The translations under genes were made by a program, and so were the position numbers. This document shows, in pieces, positions 35,891-52,110 of a DNA stretch of 64,000 nucleotides. The notes beneath the pieces are model-generated. The model made no database searches, was not told the origin of the DNA, and was given only the letters and a program-made list of their open reading frames with translations. Position 1 is the stretch's first letter. Each line of letters opens with the position of its first letter. The DNA comes from Rhizophagus irregularis (taxonomy: Eukaryota > Glomeromycota > Glomeromycetes > Glomerales > Glomeraceae), in contig NC_089435.1 in the NCBI RefSeq assembly GCF_026210795.1, positions 2,480,001 through 2,544,000 of the forward strand, read 5' to 3'.

Positions 35891-37290
35891 ATGGAAACTA
35901 AATTTGAATAATTTAAATACCTCAGACAAAGATACAAATACATTAATCAACAAAAATTGTTTATACTGTAATAAGCCTTCTACTGAAGAATTATTGTGTA
36001 AAGAATGTATTATTTCTCTGGATAAATTAGCAGATAATGGTAATAAAGAAGCAATGTTTGATTTAGCTGATTTCTATTATATTGGAAAAGGAACAGAAAA
36101 GAATTTAGAAAAATCCTTTCATTGGTATCAAAAAGCAGCAGAAAATGATCATGAAGAAGCAATGCTTAATTTATTCATATGTTATGAAAATGGAGAAGGA
36201 ACAGAAAAGGATTCAGAAAAAGCCTTTTATTGGTATAAAAAAGCAGCAGAAAATGGTGATGAAATAGCAATGCTTAATTTATTCATATTTTATAAAAATG
36301 GAGAAGGAACAGAAAAGAATTTAGAAAATCCTTTCATTGGTGTCAAAAAGCAGCAGAAAATGGTGTTAAATATGCAATGCTTAATTTATCCAGTAACTAT
36401 GATAATGGAGAAGGAACAAAAAAGAATTTAGAAAAAGCATTTTATTGGTATCAAAAAGTGGCAGAAAATGGTGAAGAAAAGCAATGAATAATTTAGCCAT
36501 ATGTTATGAAAATGGAGAAGGAACAGAAAAGAATTTAGAAATTATTGGTAGCGGAAAATGGTGATAAAGAGGCAATTAATAATTTAGTAGCCATCTGTTA
36601 TGAAAATGGAGAAGGAACAGAAAAAGATTTAGAAAAAGCCTTCTATTTGTATCAAAAAGCAGCAGAAGATGATCATATTGAAGCAATGATTAATTTAGCC
36701 AATATTTATGAAAATGGAAAAGGAATGGAAAAGGATTTTGAAAAGGCTTTTTATTGGTATCAAAAGGCAGTAGAAAGTAATAAAGTGAATCCTAAAAATG
36801 AAGTCAAATTCTGTAACGAATACAAGAATTTATTGATAAATTTATTCAAAAAGCACAATTAAATGCTAAAAATAGTCATGAAATTTTAGAGTGGATACCT
36901 TATAATAAATCGTCAAATATTAATTATTATGATAAAGGAGGATTTAGTGAAATTTATAAAGCTTTCTGGTCAGATGGGCCTATTTATAGTTGGAATATTG
37001 ACAAAAAACAATGGATAGACAAACATACTATGAGGTTATTCTTAAAAAACTTAATAATTCATCAAACTTAAATAGCAAATTTTTGGATAAGGTATGGTAT
37101 TTATATTTAGTTGTATATTTTATTTCTTTTTCAAAAATTTAATATTTTTTTATTATTTATATAGTGGAAATATCATTATAATTGTCAGAAAAAGTCATTT
37201 TCAAAATTTATTCAATTCTTTGGAATTACCCATGAACTCCCATACAATGATATTTTAATAAGTTCTAACGGAAAGAGTCATATATTACAG
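35891..37290 (+). pseudogene. Sel1-repeat / protein-kinase-like gene, broken
   Basis: A cysteine pair motif (C-x2-C-x9-C-x2-C, CLYCNKP...LLCKEC) precedes six or seven Sel1 units, each with the YENGEGTEK-(D/N)-(L/S)EKAF(Y)WYQKAAENG pattern of about 36 residues. After the repeats, from ~36860, the text turns into the start of a kinase-like domain (EWIPYNK, then a glycine loop YDKGGFSEIYKA). It continues across an intron at 37092-37164 and stops early. The frame is broken near the start (ATG at 35891 is off by one base) and near 36327, 36478, 36540 and 36858. Intact Rhizophagus relatives combine Sel1 repeats and tyrosine-kinase-like domains. This copy is dead and truncated before the kinase active site. 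Confidence 0.85.
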
Positions 37291-39140: not shown

Positions 39141-39317
39141 GATTTATCAATACCCTATAGAATTATTTTTTAAAAAAAATAAATAAAATTTCTTTACTGA
39201 AACTTGCGAAATCGGGACTGTGTAGTAGCTATGTAGCTGCTATATATATTAAAAAAAGTAGTAGGCGTATCGCTATTTTATGTTTAACGTAGGGTATCCA
39301 TATGGAGCGAATATAGT

Positions 39318-39735
39318 TTAAGTGTAACCTATGTAATGCAAAAATGTAGTTTAGTTAATGTAATAATATTGCAAAAATGTAGTTTAAGTGTAGCCTATGT
39401 AATGCAAAAATGTAGTTTAGTTAATGTAATAATATTGCAAAAATGTAGTTTAAATGTAGCTTATGTAATGCAAAAATGTAGTTTAGTTAATGTAATAATA
39501 TTGCAAAAATGTAGTTTAAATGTAGCTTATGTAATGCAAAAATGTAGTTTAGTTAATGTAATAATATTGCAAAAATGTAGTTTAAATGTAGCTTATGTAA
39601 TGCAAAAATGTAGTTTAGTTAATGTAATAATATTGCAAAAATGTAGTTTAAGTGTAGCTTATGTAATGCAAAAATGTAGTTTAGTTAATGTAATAATATT
39701 GCAAAAATATAGTTTATTTAATGCAAAAATATTGT
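39318..39735. repeat. 66 bp satellite, ~6 copies, reading-frame compatible
   Basis: Six nearly identical 66 bp units, each made of two related halves (TGCAAAAATGTAGTTT plus spacer). Because 66 is a multiple of three, one plus-strand frame stays open through the whole array, giving a 22-residue repeat. This is probably not a gene: the open frame follows from the period, and codon content is plain. The array decays to 39830. Confidence 0.9.
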
Positions 39736-39899
39736 TTAGTTAATGTAAAAATATTGCAAAAATGTAGTTTATTTAATGCAAAAATATTGTTTATTTAAAG
39801 TAATATTACAGTTTACTCAAAGTTATAATACAGTTTCATTGTATTAATTATCTAAATCTATATTAAATCTATATTAAATCTATATTAAATATATTTTGT

Positions 39900-40405
39900 A
39901 TCGATATTAATCTATGCTTCTAAAGTTTTGAATTCCTTTTTTCGAAACTATACTTGGATTTTGGTTTCCAAGCTGGAGCCAAAAAAAAAAGGAAAAAAAT
40001 TAAAAAAAAACTTAAGTTTCGAATTCCTTTATTCGAAACTTACCTATCTCACGCGAGCGTCTAACTAAGAGTTGATTTCACCAAGACCCGTGTCTAAGCC
40101 GCCTAAAAAAAGGAAAAAAAAAGAAATTAGCAACCATTTTAAAAGACAAAATAAAGATGGAATAAAACAAAAAAACAATACTCCCACCGAAGTCCTGCGT
40201 CCAAAGAATTAAAAACCGTCTAAAAAGAAAAAAAAATCAGTTAGAAAATGTTTGTCAAAATAAAAATCAAGAAAAAAATGACAAACTTACTGAAATGAGA
40301 GACCATATGAACCGTCTAAAAGAAGAAAAAATCGAAGAAACATTAGTAAATGTTTCTCAAAGAATAGTTCAAAAAATAAACCTCTACCCCTCCGAATTAT
40401 CACGC
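39900..40405 (-). other. Microexon/intron module array (3' part, left of LTR element)
   Basis: On the minus strand, at least three exon-like segments lie behind T-rich tracts ending TTTAG. Two start ACGGTT (26 nt near 40310, 36 nt near 40205); the third starts GCGGCTTAG (59 nt near 40080) and is followed by GTAAGT. Branch-site-like TCTAAC or TACTAAT motifs precede them. Segments starting G/ACGGTT also occur in the array at 53389-53421, on the other side of the retrotransposon, so the two arrays look like halves of one unit. The retrotransposon has inserted at 40405/40406. Confidence 0.55.
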
Positions 40406-41445
40406 TGAGATCCCCCAATTCCCTCTGTCATCAATTTACAGAGTTGCCACATCGAACGGGCATTCTCATGGTCGAACGAACGAATAAACGAACGAACGAT
40501 CAATTAAACGAACAAGCAATTGATCAGCGACATAATTAACAAACAACATAATCAACGAACAACATACAACAATATATAACAACAACATTCTTGGTTTATA
40601 AAATAAATAGCGTTAGTAATATAAAACGTTAAACGATATAAAATAAAATTTAACTTCTCTAAATTTTCCCCAAATTATATCCACTTTTACCTTTAATTTC
40701 AAACTTCGATAGCTCTCGCTACGAATTATTACTTTTCAAAAACATATATTTAATTCATCTTAAAATTTTCATTTGTTTAATTAAAATTAATTAAGCGAAC
40801 ATTAATTAAAGTTTAGGGCGAACCTATTACCTTTAATTAACATTAAACTTCATTAACAAATAATTAAATGAAACTTATATTTTATTTGAGTTCTGTGGAT
40901 GAGAACTAAGGAATTACCTTGAACTCCGTTCTCTATATATACAATTTTTATGCTACTTTCTATTCTATCTATATACTATCTTTTATGTTCTTTTTACATA
41001 TTATCTTTGAACTATCTTTCTAATATACTATCTATATTTTAAATACGCTATCTTTTAATATGCTATCTTTTTATATTATCTTTTACATTATTTTGTGTTC
41101 TTTAATCTTTCTGACATTATTTTATATATTCTTTTAATTCGCTTTATGTGTTTTACTTATAATCTATCTTTTGTGGCTTATAATTATTCTTTCTTATCGT
41201 TCTTATTGTTAAAGATTGCTAAGCCGCAATTGATCGACTCTATTTACCCTATTGGTTCCTTGTCAATCATTCAATAAATATTACATCATGTAGATCATTA
41301 CTCTTCCTAAATGTTTATCCTTTTCGGCTAATTATTTATCCATCTACGCCAATCCACGATTAATTTGTTCGTTCTTAATATTTAATAATTACATTTGGTG
41401 GTTGAATTTTATCATCTTTTCGTGCTTGATATTCGACCGTTTACA
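40406..41445 (-). repeat. 3' LTR
   Basis: 1040 bp, TGAGATCC...CGTTTACA as read on the plus strand. Same length as the other LTR and near-identical to it. Confidence 0.95.
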
Positions 41446-41459
41446 TTATCCCCCTCTTC
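41446..41459 (-). promoter_or_regulatory. Polypurine tract
   Basis: On the minus strand GAAGAGGGGGATAA lies directly against the 3' LTR, the expected primer site for plus-strand DNA synthesis. Confidence 0.75.
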
Positions 41460-41521
41460 GCTATTTGTGACCTCACAAATAACTTTGATAGAATCGAACT
41501 CGTGTCTTATCCATAATAATT

Positions 41522-42748
41522 TCAATCGAATCGAACTCGGGTCTTATCGAATACCTCTTTTCCTTTAATCACTATTTTTGGTGTAAATCTCCCTCGATCA
41601 TAAAATTTCTTTAACCATTCTCCGTTTTGTGGTGTTTTTAGTATTCTTCCGTCCAATTCTTTGAGTTTGTACGCTCCATTTCCAAATTCTTCGTGAATTA
41701 AATATGGTCCTTTCCATTTGTTCTGTAATTTTCCAGACCATTGTTTCTCTCTCCATGCTTCATATAATAATACTTTCTCTCCTATTTCGAATTTAGGTTT
41801 TCTAATTCCTCTTTTATCGTGTTGTTGTTTCTGTTTTTCTTGAGCTTCTTCCACATTTTCTTTTATTTTTCTTCTTATTACTGGTAGCTCCTCAATTAAT
41901 ATCTTTACTCTGTCAGCTAATGTTATTTTATTTTCGTCTTTATTTAATGGTAGTCTCGCTCCCCTTCCGTATGTTGCATAAAAAGGTTTAATTCTTGTTG
42001 ATGATTGCTTCTTCGTCCTATATGCAAATAATACGGATGGTATATGTTTATCCCAATTTTCTTCTCCTAATTTGGCTAATCCTTCGCATAAAGTTTTATT
42101 GAATCTTTCGACTAAACCATTTGTTTGTGGCCTATATGGTGTACTTAATCTATGATTTATCCCACATCTTTCTACTAATTCTTCCATCATTTTATTGTTA
42201 AAGTGAGTCCCTCTATCACTAATTATTTTCTTCGGACACCCATGCCTACAAATTATGTCCCTCCAAATAAATTCTACTACCTCTTTAGCCGTAGCTTCTT
42301 TTAGTGGTGCGGCCTCGGGCCATTTTGTAAAATAATCCATTGCTACTACAATGTACTTATTTCCCTTTTCTGTCTCTTTTAATGGTCCAACTATATCTAT
42401 CCCAATCATCTCGAATGGTTCATTTATCTTTATTGACGTTAATTCGTTCTTTCCTCTTGGTTTTCCTCTCATTTGACAATTCCAACATGTCTTTACATAT
42501 TCTTCTACATCTTCCTTCATATTTTTCCACCAATAATTTTCTTTTATCCTATCTAATGTCGCTTCTATCCCAAAATGTCCTGATAATTCATTATCATGCA
42601 TCATATACATTAATCCTTCGTATTCAAAATCCCTGATTACTCTAAATTTGTTTTGTCCTTTCACTCTATATAAAATTCCCTCTTTCAATTCGTACTTATT
42701 CTCTTTTTCGATATTGTCTATTATACTCTTGTAATTATTCTCTTCCAT
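41522..42748 (-). CDS. Retrotransposon integrase (408 aa frame)
   Basis: Residues ~50-95 carry the HHCC zinc-binding domain (H-N-ELSGHFG, then C-x2-C in CWNCQ). The catalytic core follows with the three acidic residues: IGIDIVGPL (D), IISDRGTHF (D) and the E in NGLVERFNKTL. Near residue 345 a GPY/F-type motif (KWKGPYLI) precedes the end. No chromodomain is visible. The frame is the same as that of the RT-kinase frame upstream (start 42748, r=1). The two are separated by ~60 nt with two TAA codons, across which a coding-looking shifted frame runs (NLEVESIKEI), so the domain was probably part of one Pol polyprotein. It is complete and its catalytic residues are kept. Confidence 0.92.
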   Translation of the reverse strand: MEENNYKSIIDNIEKENKYELKEGILYRVKGQNKFRVIRDFEYEGLMYMMHDNELSGHFGIEATLDRIKENYWWKNMKEDVEEYVKTCWNCQMRGKPRGKNELTSIKINEPFEMIGIDIVGPLKETEKGNKYIVVAMDYFTKWPEAAPLKEATAKEVVEFIWRDIICRHGCPKKIISDRGTHFNNKMMEELVERCGINHRLSTPYRPQTNGLVERFNKTLCEGLAKLGEENWDKHIPSVLFAYRTKKQSSTRIKPFYATYGRGARLPLNKDENKITLADRVKILIEELPVIRRKIKENVEEAQEKQKQQHDKRGIRKPKFEIGEKVLLYEAWREKQWSGKLQNKWKGPYLIHEEFGNGAYKLKELDGRILKTPQNGEWLKKFYDRGRFTPKIVIKGKEVFDKTRVRFD

Positions 42749-42808
42749 AATATTTCTTTAATTGATTCTACCTCTAAATTTGTTATTTTCGTTATGTGTT
42801 CTATATTT

Positions 42809-44924
42809 TTAGTCCTGTGCTCTTCTCCATTTCTCCACCTCTTTAAATACTTTTCTCCAGCTACTATTGTCATTTTTAACTTTTACTCGATTGTATCTTT
42901 TGGTATCTTTATACACACTCTGATTTTCTTCAAACATTTTAACCATGTCCAAATATTCATCCTTCTTTAATGTTGGATATGATGATCTTTCCATTTTCTT
43001 TGTTTCTCTTCCGATGTAATTTTTCCAACATACATCGCTATCTTTTTCTAGAAATATCACTATTGATTTATCTATCGTTTCTTTCAATCTGAATATTTCT
43101 TTTTCCATCTCATGATTTCCATGTGGAGTAATTAATCCTCTGTCGAAACTTTTCGTCTTTTGATAATAATATTCACAATATGGTGATTTGTCTAAAATTA
43201 TTATATCTGTATCTTCATCATATTCTAACATTCTTCTGTTTATTTGTTCTACTACTTCTTTTCTAAATTTCCATTCCGTCTCCATCTTTGATTCATAAAA
43301 TTCATCTTTGTCTTTTCTTCTTCTTTTATAAGTATTGAATCTTACTTTTAATCCTTGTTTTTCCCATTCTTTAATTAGATTTTGCACTATACTTGTTTTT
43401 CCTAATCCGTCTACTCCATCGATTATTACTATTTCTGGTTGGTCCTCTACTATCTTTAATAACCTACTTAATGCGTCGGCGTTCGTATTTTCTTTTCCCG
43501 ACCTATGTATTACTTCAAAATTATATTGCTGTAATTCCATTACCCATCTCGCTCTTTTTCCTTTTGGTATCTTTGCATTCATTAATCCCTTTAATGCACT
43601 GTGATCTGTTATTACTTTAAATTTTCTATCGATTAAATATTTATGGAAATGTTGAATTCCCCAAACTATTCCTAAACATTCCAATTCTGTTATTGGATAA
43701 TTTTCTTCTGCTGGTAATAAACTTCTACTTGCGTATGCTATTACTACTTCTTTTCCTTTTTCATCTTTTTGACTTAATACTGCACCTAATCCTTTTCCTG
43801 ATGCATCTGTTATTAATAAAAATTCTTTCTTCCAATCTGGATGTCGTAATATTGGATATTGTATCAACTTTTCTTTCAATTTTTCAAACGCTTCTTGTTG
43901 TTCTTTTCCCCAAATAAAAGGTATTCCCTTCTTTCTCAAATCACTTATTGGTCTTGCTATCTTTGAAAAATTTTTCACAAATTTTCTGTAATATGAACAA
44001 AGTCCTAAAAATGATCTTATTTCTTTCACTGTTGTTGGTGCCTTCATTTCTTTTATCTTTTCTATCTTTTTATCGTCTGGCCTTAATCCATCATTTCCTA
44101 CTATATGTCCTAAAAATTCTATATTTCTTTCCAAAAATCTACATTTCTTTAGTTTTATTATTAAATTATTCTCCTGTAACTTCTTTAATACTTTTTCCAC
44201 ATGTTCCATATGGTCTTTTAAATTTTCTGAATATATCATAATATCGTCAATATATACTACTACAAAATCGTTTATGTATTCTTCTAATATTTCATCCATT
44301 AATCTTTGAAATGTTGCTGGTGCATTAGTTAAACCGAATGGCATTACATTATACTCAAATAATCCCTTTGAACATACAAATGCTGTTTTTTCTTTGTCTT
44401 CTTCTTTCATTTCTACTTGATTAAATCCTGCCGCTAAATCTATACTTGAAAACCATTTTGCTTTTCTGTATTTGTCTAACAATTCATCCATTCTTGGTAA
44501 AGGAAAACTATCCATTATAGTTATCTTGTTTAACTTTCTGTAATCAATACAGAATCTATATTTTCCCGTTTTCTTTCCTGCTAACGTAACCGGTGAACTC
44601 CATGGACTTTTTGATTTCCTTATCCTTCCTTGTTTTAACAATTTATCCACTTCTTCGCTTATAAATTTTGCCTTTTCATCTGTTTCTTTATATCTTCTTT
44701 GCTTTATTGGTTCTACCCCTCTTTTATTTTTATCTCATGTTGCGCCGCTTTCGTTCTTCCTTCTATCTCTTCGTCATATTCCAAAATATCTTGGTATTCT
44801 AATAGTAATTTTACCATATTTTCCCAAATTGGTTCTTCTACTTTCCCTATACTTAGTTTTTGCATAAATTTTCCACTTGGTTCGAGCATCTTTTCCGTCT
44901 CTCTCTCTTCAGAGCCAAGACTTT
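42809..44924 (-). CDS. Pol: reverse transcriptase - RNase H - nucleotide-kinase-like fusion
   Basis: The frame is open from about 44716 to the TAA at 42809. Numbered from the codon at 44650, RT occupies ~1-190 with YIDD at 143-146, and the connection runs ~200-275. RNase H follows with TDAS (281-284), E332 and TDH (348-350), ending at ADALSR (401-406). After six to eight residues the same frame runs into a P-loop domain (see 42812-43432) to residue 613. Upstream, 44924-44717 encodes a Pol linker (KLSIGKVEEP, HEIKIKEG) in another frame. Joining it to RT needs a -1 step at GAGGGGTAG, where a GGG codon can slip onto GGG, or one lost G. A second -1 step would join it to protease near 44927. These may be decay, sequence error or recoding. 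Confidence 0.93.
42812..43432 (-). CDS. Thymidylate/nucleoside-kinase-like P-loop domain within Pol
   Basis: Residues ~407-613 of the Pol frame. A beta strand EIVIID leads into a Walker A loop GVDGLGKT (412-419), whose D-G-x-G-K-T form is characteristic of dTMP kinases and related deoxynucleoside kinases rather than of helicases. About 70 residues later a hydrophobic strand IIILDKSPYCEYYY (483-496) fits the DR(S/Y)-type substrate-binding motif of that superfamily. A strand IVIFLEKD (540-547) is followed by a basic segment RETKKMERS (558-566) that could be the ATP-covering lid. A length of ~205 residues matches a typical thymidylate kinase. The domain sits between RNase H and integrase, with no stop before it. 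The specific substrate is inferred, not shown. A degenerate host insertion is unlikely because the frame is fully open. Confidence 0.82.
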
Positions 44925-45437
44925 CTATTTAAAATTCTGGTGCATTTTGAATACCTCTCCTTCATCGTTGCTTTCATATTCTTCGTCATCCTCGCTCTCC
45001 TCACTTTCATATATTGCTTCTCTTTCATATCCTACTGGAATCGTTATTATTTCTCCTTGTTCTTCTATTCTTAAGGTATGATCTTCGAAATTTATTTTTG
45101 CATTATACAGCTTCCATATATCATTTCCCAAAATTAGATCCTCTTCTTCTGAATCGATTACCTCAACTTCTTTTAGTATTTCCAATTCATCTTTGTATCT
45201 CAAAGTTATATTTGCCTCTCCTAACGCTGCTATCTTTTGCCCATTTGCTATTGTACATCTAAATTTACTTTTTCCAAATATAGGTATATTCAATCTTCTT
45301 CTTAATTTATCTGTTATCACGCTTACTGCTGCTCCAGTATCTATTATTACATTCACTAATTGATCTTCAACTTCTAATTCTGTTCTCATTGCTGTAGTTC
45401 TCTTTTCCTCATTTTTCATAGTTCCCACCGAGTGTAG
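44925..45437 (-). CDS. Retropepsin-type aspartic protease
   Basis: The frame opens right after an in-frame UGA (45440-45438) followed by CUA. Residues about 30-45 after the first ATG carry VIIDTGAAVSVI, the aspartic protease active site (DTGA). Downstream, EEDLILGNDIW fits the flap/second-half ILG-D motif. The end is acidic (ESEDDEEYES). It has no own ATG at a sensible place (an internal ATG is near 45419), so it is most likely made by read-through from Gag. Confidence 0.88.
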   Translation of the reverse strand, partial: LHSVGTMKNEEKRTTAMRTELEVEDQLVNVIIDTGAAVSVITDKLRRRLNIPIFGKSKFRCTIANGQKIAALGEANITLRYKDELEILKEVEVIDSEEEDLILGNDIWKLYNAKINFEDHTLRIEEQGEIITIPVGYEREAIYESEESEDDEEYESNDEGEVFKMHQNFK

Positions 45438-45740
45438 TCAATTTTTCTCGTTTATGCTTCTTGGTCTATATGTTCCTTCTCTCAATTGTTTATGATACTT
45501 AGTATTCTCATTTATCATTTGTCCAATTGTTATATTCGCTCTACAATTTTTCACGTCTTCCACAATATCGTAAGGTGGTATTCCATCAGTTAATCTCGGT
45601 CCATATTCTCTGGGCTTTCCTGTCCCTGATGGCTTTGTTCTAACCCAATTTCCAAATTCATCTTGCCGCATTCCAGGGTAAAATGCTTTGCCTTCCTTTG
45701 TGAACATCGGTTTATAAAATCTTCCATCTTTTGTCATGGG
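45438..45740 (-). CDS. Gag-protease linker between two in-frame UGA codons
   Basis: About 100 codons in the same frame as gag and protease. They are bounded by the gag stop UGA (45743-45741, followed by CCC) and UGA (45440-45438, followed by CUA). The segment YDIVEDVKNCRANITIGQM is the helix-strand stretch commonly found just ahead of the protease in fungal and plant Ty3/gypsy elements. It could be translated only by read-through or by internal start at the ATG at 45737. Confidence 0.75.
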   Translation of the reverse strand, partial: PMTKDGRFYKPMFTKEGKAFYPGMRQDEFGNWVRTKPSGTGKPREYGPRLTDGIPPYDIVEDVKNCRANITIGQMINENTKYHKQLREGTYRPRSINEKN

Positions 45741-48548
45741 TCACCGACCATAATTATAATCTTCTGGTCCTATTGGACTATCCCAATTTTGACTATCTTT
45801 GTATACATTATTTTGTTCTATCCTTTCGGGCGTATATCTTGGTGTTGTTGTTCCACTTGGTATTTCTCTATCATCCATTCTATTTCCCGCTTCTCTTAAT
45901 TCTTCTTGTAAATTTCCTTCTTCACCATTATTTTTATATCCCATTATTGGATTCGACCTTCTTGTTTGTCTTCTTGTTTTTACTGCGTTATCTTTTGCGT
46001 ATAATTCATTATGGTAATTTAATTCCCTATCTTCATAATCATCGTAATAACCTTGTGTATAATACATTTCACCGTATTGTGGTTCCCCATATTCATATCC
46101 ATCATAATCATATTCTTCTTGGTCATCGTATTCGTCTATCATATTCACTCCTACATTCCTTCTTTTCTCTGGACACTCTCTTGAATAATGACCAGCTCTA
46201 CCACATGTATAGCATGTCGGTACTCTTTTTTGGAATGACTGATTTCTTTGAATTGGTTGATTTCTTTGCATTGGTTGGTTTCTTTGTGGCAATCGCCTAT
46301 AGCTCTGACTCGCTAAATTTCTTAATCTTTCATTCTCATCTTCTAACATCTTAATTTGTAACTTCGCAAAACTGTCTGCTAATTCATCTACACTTACCCC
46401 TTTATTATTCCTTACATTCCCTTGAACAATAGGTTCTTGTCTTCTTTGTTCATCATTAATTCCTTTTGGTTGTACTTTATCTGTTAATGCTTCTAAACCT
46501 CTTTCTACGTTTTTTGCTATCTGAAATGTTGCATTTAGATCTGCTGGATTTCCCATTACTACGTCTTTAGTAAAGTCCGGTTTTAATCCTCTAATAAAAA
46601 TTCTCTTTTGCTGATTTGCTGCTACTGCTGCATCACCTCCCGCTCTCTTTAACATATACTTAAATCTCGTAAGGTATTGAGTTACATTCTCGTCTCCCTG
46701 TCTAATCTTTTCTAATTGTTCTAGCCATCTATCTTTAATTTCATCACTTGCATACTTTCCAATTATTCTTACTCTTAATCTTAAATTATGATCTCCATTA
46801 ACATTCCAATCGACAATATTTACTCCTTCAGTCTTTAACCAATCTGCTGCTCCTCCCATTAATTTCGCTTTTGCTAATCTAAATCTCTGTGCGTCATCAT
46901 TCCCTAAACCATTCGCTGTAAATGTCTCCTCAAATTTATCTGCCCATTCTTCTGGATCTTCTCCACTGGTACCATAAAATACTGGTATTTCCACAATAGC
47001 TCCCCTATTTGCGTTTAAATTTCCTATTGCATTAGTATTCGCTTGAACTTCTCCTTGTAATCCTGTCAATGTTACTGGTGGTAATGCTAAATTGTTCCAA
47101 TCTGCCCCAATATCATGATTATACATAGTATTCATTAATGCTCTTAGATCTGCTCTGAGTTCATCTCTTGATGCTGCCATTGTTATCTTTGGTTTTATTG
47201 GTGGTACTGGTGTTATTGGTATTATAGGTACTTCCTTTGATTTTTTATTTTTCTCTTTACTTTTTGGTTTTTTACTTGAGCCAATTTTGGGTCCTTTTAT
47301 ATCCTCTTCCATTTCATCTTCATCATCCGTTGGATTTTCTTTTTCAATATCTTCTTCACATTCTATGCAGGTTTCTTTTCCAATTTCAAATTCTTTCTTT
47401 AATCTTTCAATTTCACATCTTCCGCATTCTTTTGTGTTTTCAACTCTCCATTGTAATATTTGTTCATCTAATTTTTCATCTTCAAGATTCCATATTGTTA
47501 AATATTTCTTCATAAATTCATATGTTGTTATTATCTTTGCGGTTACTCCAAATTTTCTTATTCTTTCAATTTCCGTTATTTCTACATCATATCCCATTCT
47601 TTTCAAATCCATTCTAATTATTTCTTCGAATACCTTTGTTGTTTCTGTTTCTTCAACATTATTAGATTCAATAGATTCGTCAGATTCCTCATCTGACATT
47701 TCTTCATTTTTACTAATTGGTAAATTTTCTTCCTCCCCATCGTCTGTTTCTGTTATAGTATAACTTCTTGGTGTGTCATCACTATCTGTTTCATCTATAT
47801 TTAATTGCTCAAACCCCCTAATCTTATCGTAAACTTTTTCAATTACTACTTTCGAGATTCCTCCACCACGACCTTTTACGTACATTGTATTCAACATTGA
47901 TCTAATCTTTTGTTTGAACGCTTCTATTTTTTCCGTTGACTCATCTTCTTTTAATTCTGCTTCCTCATACAATATATCTTTGTATTTTCTAATAACGCTA
48001 TCTTTCCATTTTATAAACTCTAATATAGCCACTTTATGCCATTCATAAAATTCCCTAAATCTTATATTCACATCCCAATCTTCCAAAATATAACCATATC
48101 TTATTAATTCTTCATTCCCTATTAATCTGTCTATTGTTTCGTCTTCTTTATCGTTTTCTATACAATCTCTCGCAACCACTATTATTATTATCTTTAGTCC
48201 TTTCTCTCTCAGTATTGGTTGTTTCAAGTATCTTATCGATTCAACTATTATATCTAATGCATCTCTAGTTTTTCCTTTCGTATAATTATTTCTTTCTTCA
48301 CTATCTATACTTAATAAATTTATTAGCGCCCTTATAGTTTCTGCATTATAATCCCTTATTGTATATTCAAATTTTTGTAATATTCTCCAAAATTTCTTAA
48401 AAACTTCTGGTGTATCTCTTATTGGATAACATATTTCACATGTTATATTTTCTCCTCTCAATTCGTCTATATCTACATTTCTGATATTTTCGTCATGTCT
48501 TAATTTGTGGTTCTCGTAATCAACCCTCCAAGTTTCATACCATTCCAT
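45741..48548 (-). CDS. Gag polyprotein with long N-terminal extension (935 aa)
   Basis: Starts at ATG 48548. Residues ~525-690 are a retrotransposon Gag capsid domain (PVFYGTSGEDPEEWADKF, LTRFKYML, FIRGLKPDF). A CCHC nucleic-acid-binding knuckle lies at C779, C782, H787, C792. A tyrosine/aspartate-rich tail follows and the frame ends in UGA. Ordinary Ty3 Gag could start at M457 (MAAS). The ~455 residues before it are extra: an alpha-helical part (1-250), an acidic low-complexity stretch (252-312), a second folded-looking part (315-400) with C375-x2-C378 and C394-x2-C397 (zinc-ribbon spacing), then a lysine/proline linker. I do not recognise the extension. Confidence 0.9.
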   Translation of the reverse strand: MEWYETWRVDYENHKLRHDENIRNVDIDELRGENITCEICYPIRDTPEVFKKFWRILQKFEYTIRDYNAETIRALINLLSIDSEERNNYTKGKTRDALDIIVESIRYLKQPILREKGLKIIIIVVARDCIENDKEDETIDRLIGNEELIRYGYILEDWDVNIRFREFYEWHKVAILEFIKWKDSVIRKYKDILYEEAELKEDESTEKIEAFKQKIRSMLNTMYVKGRGGGISKVVIEKVYDKIRGFEQLNIDETDSDDTPRSYTITETDDGEEENLPISKNEEMSDEESDESIESNNVEETETTKVFEEIIRMDLKRMGYDVEITEIERIRKFGVTAKIITTYEFMKKYLTIWNLEDEKLDEQILQWRVENTKECGRCEIERLKKEFEIGKETCIECEEDIEKENPTDDEDEMEEDIKGPKIGSSKKPKSKEKNKKSKEVPIIPITPVPPIKPKITMAASRDELRADLRALMNTMYNHDIGADWNNLALPPVTLTGLQGEVQANTNAIGNLNANRGAIVEIPVFYGTSGEDPEEWADKFEETFTANGLGNDDAQRFRLAKAKLMGGAADWLKTEGVNIVDWNVNGDHNLRLRVRIIGKYASDEIKDRWLEQLEKIRQGDENVTQYLTRFKYMLKRAGGDAAVAANQQKRIFIRGLKPDFTKDVVMGNPADLNATFQIAKNVERGLEALTDKVQPKGINDEQRRQEPIVQGNVRNNKGVSVDELADSFAKLQIKMLEDENERLRNLASQSYRRLPQRNQPMQRNQPIQRNQSFQKRVPTCYTCGRAGHYSRECPEKRRNVGVNMIDEYDDQEEYDYDGYEYGEPQYGEMYYTQGYYDDYEDRELNYHNELYAKDNAVKTRRQTRRSNPIMGYKNNGEEGNLQEELREAGNRMDDREIPSGTTTPRYTPERIEQNNVYKDSQNWDSPIGPEDYNYGR

Positions 48549-49471
48549 CGTTGTAATCGTTCATCCAGAATCTTAACTAAAATCTCACCTCCTTTTATAT
48601 ATATATTTCACTCTCATCGTTTCTATTTTCAATCTTCTATGTTTCTATTTTCAATCTTCTTTTATCTTTAAATAGATTGCTCCTTTCAATCTTTAAATTC
48701 CATCTTTCAGTTTTATATATTTACTACTCCATATTCTATTATTAATTTTTGCTGCGCCTCAAAATTTCAAAAATTATTCTAAGTCCACGATCTCCTCAGA
48801 CTGCGGAGGTTTTTACTGCGCCACAAAGTTTATCTTTTGTCACCAAGATCCATAATCTCACATATCACATTCTAAATTTTATCTCCTATCACCGTGATTC
48901 ATAATTTCACATATCACATCCTAAAATTCATCTTCCATCACCGAGATTCATAATTTCACATATCACAAACTCCAAAATTTTCATAACTTTTAAAGTTTGC
49001 GAATCTTCAATCTTTCTTATCATCCACATAAATCCTTCTTACTATATATTCTATATTATGTAAATTAATCTATGATACACAAAATGTCGTTCTTTTCAAA
49101 TAAATGTCCTTCTTTTCAAATAAATGTTCTTTTTCAAGTAAATATTCTTCTTTTAAATAAATGTCCTTCTTTTCGGATTTTACTCTATTATTAAATACTG
49201 CACGTAATATCCATTATACGGCTCGTTAATGTGTAAATATCCTTCTATTTCATCTTCTTTTAACGGAACATTGTAATGAGAGCGTGAACTAGGACACTAC
49301 ACCAGGAACCTTCATCTGAAATGTAGCCTAGGACCTGTAACAATATAACGTATCCATTTTTCCTCCTTCGTTGGCCGACTTGTCTCTTAACGGGTGAATC
49401 TAACCTTCCAAAATCCAGTTTTAAAAGTCATCAGCTATCCATAAAACTCATCTAAACCAACTTATCTTTCC
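48549..49471 (-). other. Retrotransposon leader with short repeats
   Basis: Between gag and the leader ORF. Three ~58 bp repeats (CACC(A)AGATTCATAATTTCAC) at 48838-48975, and five ~20 bp repeats (TGTCCTTCTTTTCAAATAAA) at 49084-49175. No open frame. Confidence 0.6.
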
Positions 49472-49788
49472 TCAAATTGGTGGACCTATACTGGGCTTAT
49501 CTCTATCTTTTTCCCATTGGGTAAAAGCATGATAGTTTACAGGTTTGTCCCATTTTATCCATTCAATGTTTCTTGATAGTAGGTGTCTTTACAATTTTCA
49601 TTCCCCGTTCCCAAAGCAATTTGCGCATTATTGAGCTGGGTATCCAGATTTGACGTAACCCATACGTTATAATCTTTAATGTCGAAGAATAAAAATTTTC
49701 CAATTTCGAGCATTTGTCCAAAATTCAAACTCAGAGGTAACCCATACCACACAGATGAACCCCAGATAATACATTGGTGTTCTCCCAT
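49472..49788 (-). CDS. Small unrecognised ORF in the retrotransposon leader (one frameshift)
   Basis: ATG at 49788 opens a 77-codon frame (MGEHQCIIWGSSVWYGLPLS, later KFLFFDIKDYNVWVTSNLDT). Just before its stop, near 49560, the sense moves into the neighbouring frame (EWIKWDKPVNYHAF, WEKDRDKPSIGPPI) and ends with TGA at 49474-49472. Together this is about 105 residues with natural amino-acid composition and several Trp. It lies between the primer-binding site and gag, where Ty3 elements normally have no gene. Family unknown; it could be a captured host exon. Confidence 0.5.
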
Positions 49789-50119
49789 TATTAATCTTTA
49801 TTTCAAAATCCATCTTTCACTTCCACATCTCCTTATGAGATTTCTCAGGTACTTTATTCCCGAAAGAAATATTCTTGTGCTTTCTATCGATTAAATGATT
49901 ACTCGCACAACTTCAAACTCCAATCTTTCACCTTTTCAAGTTTTTAACTCAATCCAATCCTTATTGATTTATTGGTTCTTTTTGAACTCGTCAAAACCTG
50001 AAATCTAAAAATAAATTCTAAAATAAAATATTGATTAATAATACCTATCAGTGACTTACTAACGAAGTCAAATTTTCATATTCATTATTATAATAATCAT
50101 GTGATGATGATCATTTCCT

Positions 50120-50137
50120 TTCTCGGAGCATGCACCA
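50120..50137 (-). promoter_or_regulatory. Candidate primer-binding site
   Basis: On the minus strand, two bases after the 5' LTR, the sequence starts TGGTGCATGCTCCGAG. TGG complements a tRNA 3' CCA end. Which tRNA it is cannot be settled without the host tRNA set. Confidence 0.6.
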
Positions 50138-50139
50138 TA

Positions 50140-51179
50140 TGAGATCCCCCAATTCCCTCTGTCATCAATTTACAGAGTTGCCACATCGAACGGGCATTCT
50201 CATGGTCGAACGAACGAATAAACGAACGAACGATCAATTAAACGAACAAGCAATTAATCAGCGACATAATTAACGAACAACATAATCAACGAACAACATA
50301 CAACAATATATAACAACAACATTCTTGGTTTACAAAATAAATAGCGTTAGTAATATAAAACGTTGAACGATATAAAATAAAATTTAACTTCTCTAAATTT
50401 TCCCCAAATTATATCCACTTTTACCTTTAATTTCAAACTTCGATAGCTCTCGCTACGAATTATTACTTTTCAAAAACATATATTTAATTCATCTTAAAAT
50501 TTTCATTTGTTTAATTAAAATTAATTAAGCGAACATTAATTAAAGTTTAGGGCGAACCTATTACCTTTAATTAACATTAAACTTCATTAACAAATAATTA
50601 AATGAAACTTATATTTTATTTGAGTTCTGTGGATGAGAACTAAGGAATTACCTTGAACTCCGTTCTCTATATATACAATTTTTATGCTACTTTCTATTCT
50701 ATCTATATACTATCTTTTATGTTCTTTTTACATATTATCTTTGAACTATCTTTCTAATATACTATCTATATTTTAAATACGCTATCTTTTAATATGCTAT
50801 CTTTTTATATTATCTTTTACATTATTTTGTGTTCTTTAATCTTTCTGACATTATTTTATATATTCTTTTAATTCGCTTTATGTGTTTTACTTATAATCTA
50901 TCTTTTGTGGCTTATAATTATTCTTTCTTATCGTTCTTATTGTTAAAGATTGCTAAGCCGCAATTGATCGACTCTATTTACCCTATTGGTTCCTTGTCAA
51001 TCATTCAATAAATATTACATCATGTAGATCATTACTCTTCCTAAATGTTTATCCTTTTCGGCTAATTATTTATCCATCTACGCCAATCCACGATTAATTT
51101 GTTCGTTCTTAATATTTAATAATTACATTTGGTGGTTGAATTTTATCATCTTTTCGTGCTTGATATTCGACCGTTTACA
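50140..51179 (-). repeat. 5' LTR
   Basis: 1040 bp; differs from the other LTR at four sites that I can see, all transitions. It should hold the promoter for the minus-strand transcript. Confidence 0.95.
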
Positions 51180-52110
51180 ACGCGTATGTTCCTTGTAGGC
51201 TGGTGTGAGATTGTAAGACTGAAAAAATAAAATAATTAATATAAAGTTACGAAATTAAAATAATAAATTTCTCATTCTTACAAAAATCAAACTACAATTG
51301 CCCAATTTATCACCATCACGTGGTTCAGTTGGCATAAATCTGGTATGATGCCTCTTTTGCAATATAATACTATATATTAAGGGATTAGTAAATTTAGAAA
51401 TTGTAAAATAATAATGGTAACAACATGACGTTAAAAAACTTACAATGTTAGTGTAGGTCCCAAATTTCTGTACACACTAGCAAAGACTTCTTTAAGTGCT
51501 TTTACTTCATAAGTTTTTACATGTTGAAATTGAGTTTCACCAACTCCATCACGATAAAACAAAAATTTTCTCAGTAAAACTTGATTTCTTTGATAAAAAC
51601 ACGAAGTAAATCGATTACTACTCCTTTGAGATCTTCAATAATTTAATTTCGAGGATCCTTATTAACACATAATCTTCCAGCGTATCTAGTAGCTTTTTGA
51701 ATCCAATGAGGCACATACAGCTACAATACTTGGCCTATTATCACCTCTTCCGGAATGGAAAACGTCAGCGCCGAGTATCATTGTCAGTTCTGAAGATACA
51801 AAATCAATTTGATCGTTGGTTAATATTACATTTTGTCCACCTAATTTTGCGTTCACTTTCAAAAAGATGTTTGAACAAATTTGATCGATTCCATTTTTTC
51901 TCACTAATCGTTTGAGTAAAATACATTGAGTTGGAACACCCAATTGCGTGTCCCAATCCTTTTAATTTCTCCATATATTGGACCCATTGATCCCAAAATA
52001 CATATAATGATATGTGGAGGATAATTTTTGTTAAACAAAGATTTGTGACAAGCAATATTCAACGCCGTAGTAATTTCGCTTTGAGGATATGACGTAAGGA
52101 TCATTCGGGA
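51180..52110 (-). pseudogene. Argonaute PIWI-domain remnant
   Basis: Minus-strand text gives consecutive PIWI-domain motifs: PPHIIICILG, GVPTQC, KNGIDQICSNI, VNAKLGGQNVIL, IDFVSSELTMILGADVFH, DNRPSIVAVCAS, YAGRLC, EDLKGVVIDLL, LFYRDGVGETQF, YRNLGPTLT, then after an intron QKRHHTRFMPTEP. The GAD and YRD aspartates of the DDH slicer triad are present. The C-terminal histidine part is missing. Frame breaks occur near 51950, 51690 and 51585, plus an in-frame TAA near 51640, so it is not functional as is. It lies inside a minus-strand microexon unit, with a good acceptor before it (TTTTTTTAG at about 52131-52139). Confidence 0.85.

Follow-up and report, generated by a model that had tools for sequence, protein, structure and literature searches.

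Introduction

Accessory enzymes of the nucleotide pool are already known in long terminal repeat (LTR) elements, and the Gypsy elements that bear a dUTPase are the closest known kind to the element described here. As described in two papers, dUTPase occurs in Ty3/gypsy elements of fungi and rotifers and in retroviruses; fungal copies sit at the N-terminus of Pol, at its C-terminus or between protease and reverse transcriptase (RT), rotifer copies sit between protease and RT, retroviral copies may sit between RT and integrase, and the fungal enzymes seem to have been acquired several times (PMC2864245, PMC5408684). The subject of this work is a stretch of 64,000 nucleotides from Rhizophagus irregularis (assembly GCF_026210795.1, contig NC_089435.1, positions 2,480,001 to 2,544,000), referred to as the window, which contains a young Ty3/gypsy LTR retrotransposon (40406-51179, minus strand) whose Pol frame includes a nucleotide-kinase-like domain.

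As described there, dUTPase-bearing elements resemble this one in having an extra nucleotide-pool enzyme in Pol, at a variable place, and the retroviral site between RT and integrase matches that of the kinase. They differ in fold and in reaction, which is hydrolysis of dUTP, and their multiple fungal gains contrast with a single kinase clade. No dUTPase family is present among the Pfam matches (E ≤ 1) of the Gag, Pol and integrase frames. Among the papers listed by literature searches, judged by title and abstract opening and with most subscription papers and all preprints outside their reach, none reports a retrotransposon with a nucleotide kinase.

The domain is probably a functional kinase module with the fold of thymidylate kinases (TMPKs) and deoxynucleoside kinases (dNKs), belonging to one Ty3/gypsy clade in arbuscular mycorrhizal (AM) fungi and phosphorylating a (deoxy)nucleoside monophosphate for reverse transcription. 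It would be produced together with RT-RNase H or with integrase; the predicted kinase would act on a (deoxy)nucleoside monophosphate, dTMP being the first candidate, in or near the particle; and the resulting deoxynucleoside diphosphates, then triphosphates (dNTPs), would become available for reverse transcription. This supply mechanism takes as its analogy the dUTPases of retroviruses and of the LTR elements of fungi and rotifers; catalysis, substrate, packaging with RT and a benefit to reverse transcription are inferred. Whether such a kinase was gained once as a permanent replication enzyme of an AM-fungal Gypsy clade, made with RT or integrase for local dNTPs, traded among subfamilies with shifting open reading frames (ORFs) and marking the clade, strikes us as an even call. 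If active, the domain would be a new enzyme class for LTR retrotransposons, the kinase counterpart of the dUTPases of retroviruses and fungal elements, and would point to reverse transcription in AM fungi being limited by the supply of dNTPs.

The kinase domain

The Pol frame (42809-44734, minus strand, 641 residues) holds RT at residues 54-212, RNase H at residues 275-404 and then the P-loop domain, with a stop at 42809. An earlier note, made from the DNA letters, had described a Pol frame running stop-free past RNase H into such a domain at 42812-43432, which is borne out and agrees with the interval found here (42812-43438); the GVDGLGKT, IIILDKSP and basic segments are all where it had seen them. 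The integrase frame that it placed after the domain is also there, in the same register and two stops downstream. The features of the domain are as follows, with residue invariance scored over the 27 rows of alignment A2.

42812-43438, minus strand: nucleotide-kinase-like domain, 209 residues, in frame with RT-RNase H (profiles, predicted fold)
43394-43417, minus strand: Walker A motif GVDGLGKT; G8, D10 and K14 invariant
43316-43336, minus strand: basic loop NTYKRRR after strand 2, a putative acceptor-phosphate loop; N35, R39 and R41 invariant
43178-43192, minus strand: DKSPY, counterpart of TMPK DR[YH] and dNK [DE]R[ST]; D83, K84 and Y87 invariant
42971-43027, minus strand: LID-like segment, its role suggested by the fold; W138, N140, Y141 and R144 invariant

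The window domain matches the thymidylate kinase profile PHROG_761 with an E value of 6.8e-14 over residues 3-204 of 209. Among 24 family members scanned by profiles (set A3, E ≤ 1e-3), PHROG_761 matches all 24, Pfam Thymidylate_kin (PF02223) and NCBIfam DTMP_kinase 22 each, and Pfam dNK (PF01712) two. AlphaFold2, run on the 27-row alignment, predicts a thymidylate-kinase/deoxynucleoside-kinase fold with a predicted local distance difference test score of 92.5. The closest solved folds are thymidylate and deoxynucleoside kinases, tied, and the closest viral models are likewise deoxynucleoside and thymidylate kinases. A chance P-loop is ruled out by the near-full-length PHROG match, the predicted fold and selection, and the number of genomic matches (151) likewise takes the domain well past coincidence. 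No better-fitting P-loop family turned up; as for another P-loop kinase, the hhalign alignment to E. coli Cmk covers only 25 columns around the P-loop.

Thymidylate kinases have a P-loop of the form Gx[DE]GxGK[ST], a DR[YH] motif and an RFPxR/REPGG loop. In deoxynucleoside kinases, the glutamate of an E-x-x-x-x-W motif after strand 2 is the general base. The domain agrees with the thymidylate kinases in its predicted structure, in the acidic residue of its P-loop (GVDGLGKT, D10 invariant), in a D-basic-x motif followed by YQ and in the LID-like segment. It departs from thymidylate kinases (PF02223; PHROG_761) in having DK rather than DR (DKS stands in place of DR[YH] with K84 invariant, a conservative change) and NTFKRRR rather than RFPxR/REPGG, in being fused to or beside Pol, and in a structural-alignment identity of about 11%. 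DKSPY aligns with DRT of the host dNK and DRH of E. coli Tmk. The general-base glutamate of dNKs is replaced by Asn35, invariant in A2, which counts against a nucleoside kinase. We read the domain as a divergent member of the superfamily whose substrate would more likely be a monophosphate. The earlier note had proposed a domain of thymidylate/deoxynucleoside kinase type; the superfamily stands on profiles, predicted fold and conserved active-site positions, and the domain may belong to either family within it, with thymidylate kinase profiles matching most often.

Several results weigh against the reading favoured here. The window domain scores 17.9 against PF02223, for which the cut-off is 27, and two of seven sequences scanned pass this curated cut-off. 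Several thymidylate kinase matches span only the P-loop part (residues 61-88 of family protein P0013 for Pfam, 58-88 for TIGR00041), and the FtsY profile matches 18 of the 24 A3 members (residues 34-88 of P0013) and also tops the PDB profile search. A genome search with PF02223 gave four matches among 107 scored candidates, one an element fragment (C6) and the others host genes. Alignment by hhalign is weaker to E. coli Tmk (7.3e-5, P-loop only, and 9.1e-5, reaching DKSPYCEYFYQ over DRHDLSTQAYQ) than to the fungus's own dNK, L067 (8e-11 over 110 columns, and 3.2e-10 in a second comparison). Fold comparison does not separate the two families (Z within about 1), and dTMP specificity is uncertain because DK replaces the DR of TMPKs and NTFKRRR replaces their RFPxR/REPGG loop.

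The same alignments bear on an alternative that we regard as unlikely, in which the domain is a dNK-family enzyme that phosphorylates deoxynucleosides rather than monophosphates and serves the element in deoxynucleoside salvage. Besides the predicted fold, the domain's profile similarity to dNKs (PF01712, including L067) extends from before the P-loop to the DKS/DRT position, where DKSPY pairs with DRTPL; Giardia deoxyadenosine kinase is Foldseek rank 1 for the model; and the match between P0013 and PF01712 takes in almost the whole profile (E 0.0012). Yet within the span aligned to L067 the dNK glutamate column is the invariant Asn35, followed by KRRR, PF01712 matches two of 24 members versus 22 of 24 for Thymidylate_kin at 1e-3, and the PF01712 genome search gave, from 25 candidates, a single match that is a host gene.

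Spread and phylogeny

A genome search with the domain gave 151 matches, so that the domain recurs among sibling copies and is not the one-off capture that the earlier note had considered. Of the 150 matches described row by row, 114 are free of stops. A further 17, which all belong to subfamily B (85-87%), carry a single stop at the domain end and are stop-free up to residue 386-387 of the metagenome protein P0106. With many stop-free natural sequences at hand, the enzyme question is open to direct test. Identities step down through about 97, 86, 75, 66, 61 and 56%, the lowest full-length value being 53%, and these steps are treated here as six or more subfamilies.

The kinase follows RT closely: in 97 of 99 scored RT relatives (357 candidates), one of the listed kinases lies at most 2.5 kb downstream and on the same strand, and in the other two it lies 5.4 and 15.9 kb downstream, spacings that would fit later insertions. 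Named relatives come from R. clarus, R. diaphanus, Glomus cerebriforme and R. irregularis, the last being the name on the nearest database proteins (97%), with many more from metagenomes. Database entries that contain the domain, some beside RNase H or integrase, go under the names "enzymatic polyprotein", "hypothetical protein" or "thymidylate kinase", and the module accounts for them.

Six Gypsy loci from an RNase H profile search (L061-L066, of which L065 and L066 are one family) resemble the kinase-bearing elements in having RT, RNase H and an integrase with a frame of its own, preceded in L061 by a longer additional stretch. They differ in that tblastn finds no kinase within the 3.0-3.2 kb examined per locus and in falling outside the kinase clade on RT and integrase trees. 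In an RT-RNase H tree of 22 rows, a sample of the Gypsy families of the genome, the 16 rows with a kinase group in a single clade (SH-aLRT 100) with the six kinase-less rows outside it, and the integrase tree concurs (99).

Frame layout and module exchange

In subfamilies A-E, the frame that encodes the kinase also contains RNase H. The two are joined by a short stretch in A and C (about eight residues in A) and by a 70-80-residue linker in B, D and E. In subfamily F, the kinase opens the integrase ORF (...KMGPKIIIICGVDG) and is out of frame with RT in five of seven copies. Kinase proteins from metagenomes start with Met and have a near-constant length of 251-265 residues, which suggests a stand-alone kinase ORF in other lineages. 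Their N-terminal part is conserved and homologous to the linker, and a high-confidence model predicts three strands and a helix for it. When two pieces of the N-terminal linker were scanned alone against Pfam, one had no match and the other matched DUF220 at E 0.07; a fold search with the longer module (linker plus kinase) had coverage mainly of the kinase. In L069, an old degraded copy in the genome, RT-RNase H is followed by cysteine-rich and coiled-coil frames, after which comes a broken-up kinase of the kind seen in those metagenome proteins.

A second alternative, also quite unlikely, is that the fold has been redirected to another substrate or role, either phosphorylating the 5'-OH of nucleic acid ends (primer or cDNA) or binding ATP to regulate particle assembly or integration. 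Nucleic acid would then be bound by the KRRR loop and, in other subfamilies, by an extra N-terminal beta mini-domain. The invariance of the basic loop, the confident model of the N-terminal region, the proximity to integrase and the fusion to it in subfamily F speak for such a role; against it, the best folds are nearly all nucleotide or nucleoside kinases, and P0106 joins the domain to NUDIX.

One subfamily, B, has swapped in the kinase of another. Subfamilies B and E are close in RT (nonsynonymous distance dN 0.115) and integrase (0.098). For the kinase, dN is 0.066 between A and B versus 0.247 between A and E; outside it, A and B differ by 0.220 in RT and 0.317 in integrase. Locus L042 combines a B backbone with a D/E-type kinase. 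Approximately unbiased tests reject, for the kinase, a grouping of B with D/E and L042 (p 0.0017) and, for integrase, a grouping of A+B+C (p 3e-44), p values that are indicative because the groups were named after the trees had been viewed.

Other lineage-specific frames lie between RNase H and integrase at L031 3631-4000 (plus strand), a small extra ORF in subfamily B, and at L069 1546-3245 and L061 1682-2569; cysteine-rich and coiled-coil frames occur elsewhere than in L031. This lineage of Gypsy elements appears to use the RNase H-integrase junction as a general site for cargo.

Origin and host kinases

Kinase genes of the host itself include a TMPK (L052/L054), another gene that is TMPK-like (L051) and a dNK (L067, PF01712 at 1.2e-31). 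The domain is not a close copy of any of these, none of which is among the 150 matches listed for it. By tblastn against phages, the window domain and P0106 had no match and P0010 one P-loop-sized match at E 0.3. Viral contig scans (P0106, A2) and a genome contig scan (A2) found no relative; these need short near-exact peptides, so that absence is weak evidence.

P0106, the 393-residue metagenome protein used as outgroup, joins NUDIX to a kinase that shares 46% identity with the window domain, with no retroelement part in the protein. This arrangement is a further hint of nucleotide metabolism.

A role in counter-defence, in which the enzyme would overcome a block that the host sets on reverse transcription, by restoring or changing the nucleotide pools or by disarming a modified nucleotide, is improbable. 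It would follow the logic of viral nucleotide enzymes, and since the host possesses TMPK and dNK genes, there is no obvious need for an enzyme of supply alone.

Among the host genes, L051 (1240-2124; G000:C24:3288271) has a degenerate P-loop, LEGCEDTNTT, the ordinary gene being at C13, and L067 (1474-2481, minus strand) has an N-terminal extension of about 125 residues.

Selection

The kinase domain is maintained by purifying selection. The ratio of nonsynonymous to synonymous rates (dN/dS, Nei-Gojobori) is 0.060 in subfamily A (31 copies), 0.084 in E (4) and 0.128 in F (5). For all three domains the sampling leans towards young and intact copies, and of the 31 in subfamily A, 30 are the best genomic matches. 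Across seven subfamilies, with one row each, it is 0.140, at between-subfamily dS values mostly near or above 1 and close to saturation. These values are near those of RT (0.039-0.041) and integrase (0.074-0.100), and the kinase DNA read in shifted frames gives 0.65-2.87 within and 0.94-1.40 across subfamilies. Once rows with stops or partial matches had been removed, the 50 loci contributed 37 rows for RT, 47 for the kinase and 28 for integrase. The earlier note's concern that selection might be absent is thus answered. A captured passenger gene without function, for which the general gene-capture habit of retroelements speaks, is very improbable given the low dN/dS in the true frame versus the shifted frames, the invariant catalytic positions and a kinase close to 97 of the 99 RT relatives.

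Structure of the element in the window

The retrotransposon has an LTR pair with TG..CA termini (1,040 bp each, four mismatches), a target-site duplication, primer-binding-site-like and polypurine-tract-like sites, and, from frames and Pfam, the Ty3/gypsy order of Gag, RT-RNase H and integrase. Its features other than the kinase are the following.

40406-41445, minus strand: 3' LTR, TG...CA ends, 1036 of 1040 bases the same as the other LTR
50140-51179, minus strand: 5' LTR, from comparison of the pair
40402-40405, no strand, second copy at 51180-51183: target-site duplication ACGC, 4 bp, read from sequence
50122-50137, minus strand: candidate primer-binding-site-like TGG... directly inside the 5' LTR, read from sequence
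41449-41459, minus strand: purine-rich tract adjoining the 3' LTR, read from sequence
45741-48560, minus strand: Gag frame of 939 residues between stops, with a capsid-like part and a CCHC zinc knuckle (Retrotrans_gag 6.5e-6, zf-CCHC 2.5e-6)
44925-45437, minus strand: aspartic-protease-like frame, IDTGAAVSV (motif by eye; PF13650/PF13975 listed for sibling protein P0075)
44099-44575, minus strand: reverse transcriptase (RVT_1 6.9e-45)
43523-43912, minus strand: RNase H (RT_RNaseH 2.8e-37, RT_RNaseH_2 5.6e-37)
41522-42757, minus strand: integrase frame, H2C2 zinc domain and rve core, first Met at 42748 (Integrase_H2C2 1.3e-21, rve 1.3e-14)

The Pol frame of many sibling copies is 706 residues long versus 641 in the window copy, which therefore differs from those upstream of RT. 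At 42758-42811, stops part integrase from the remainder of Pol, here and in many other copies; in the kinase-less loci integrase is also in a separate frame. Adjoining the element, a repeat array with a 33-bp period lies at 39244-39837 (11 overlapping copies listed) and is open as a repeat frame at 39288-39743. Elsewhere in the window, repeats of about 108 nucleotides at 36024-36776 appear Sel1-like by eye.
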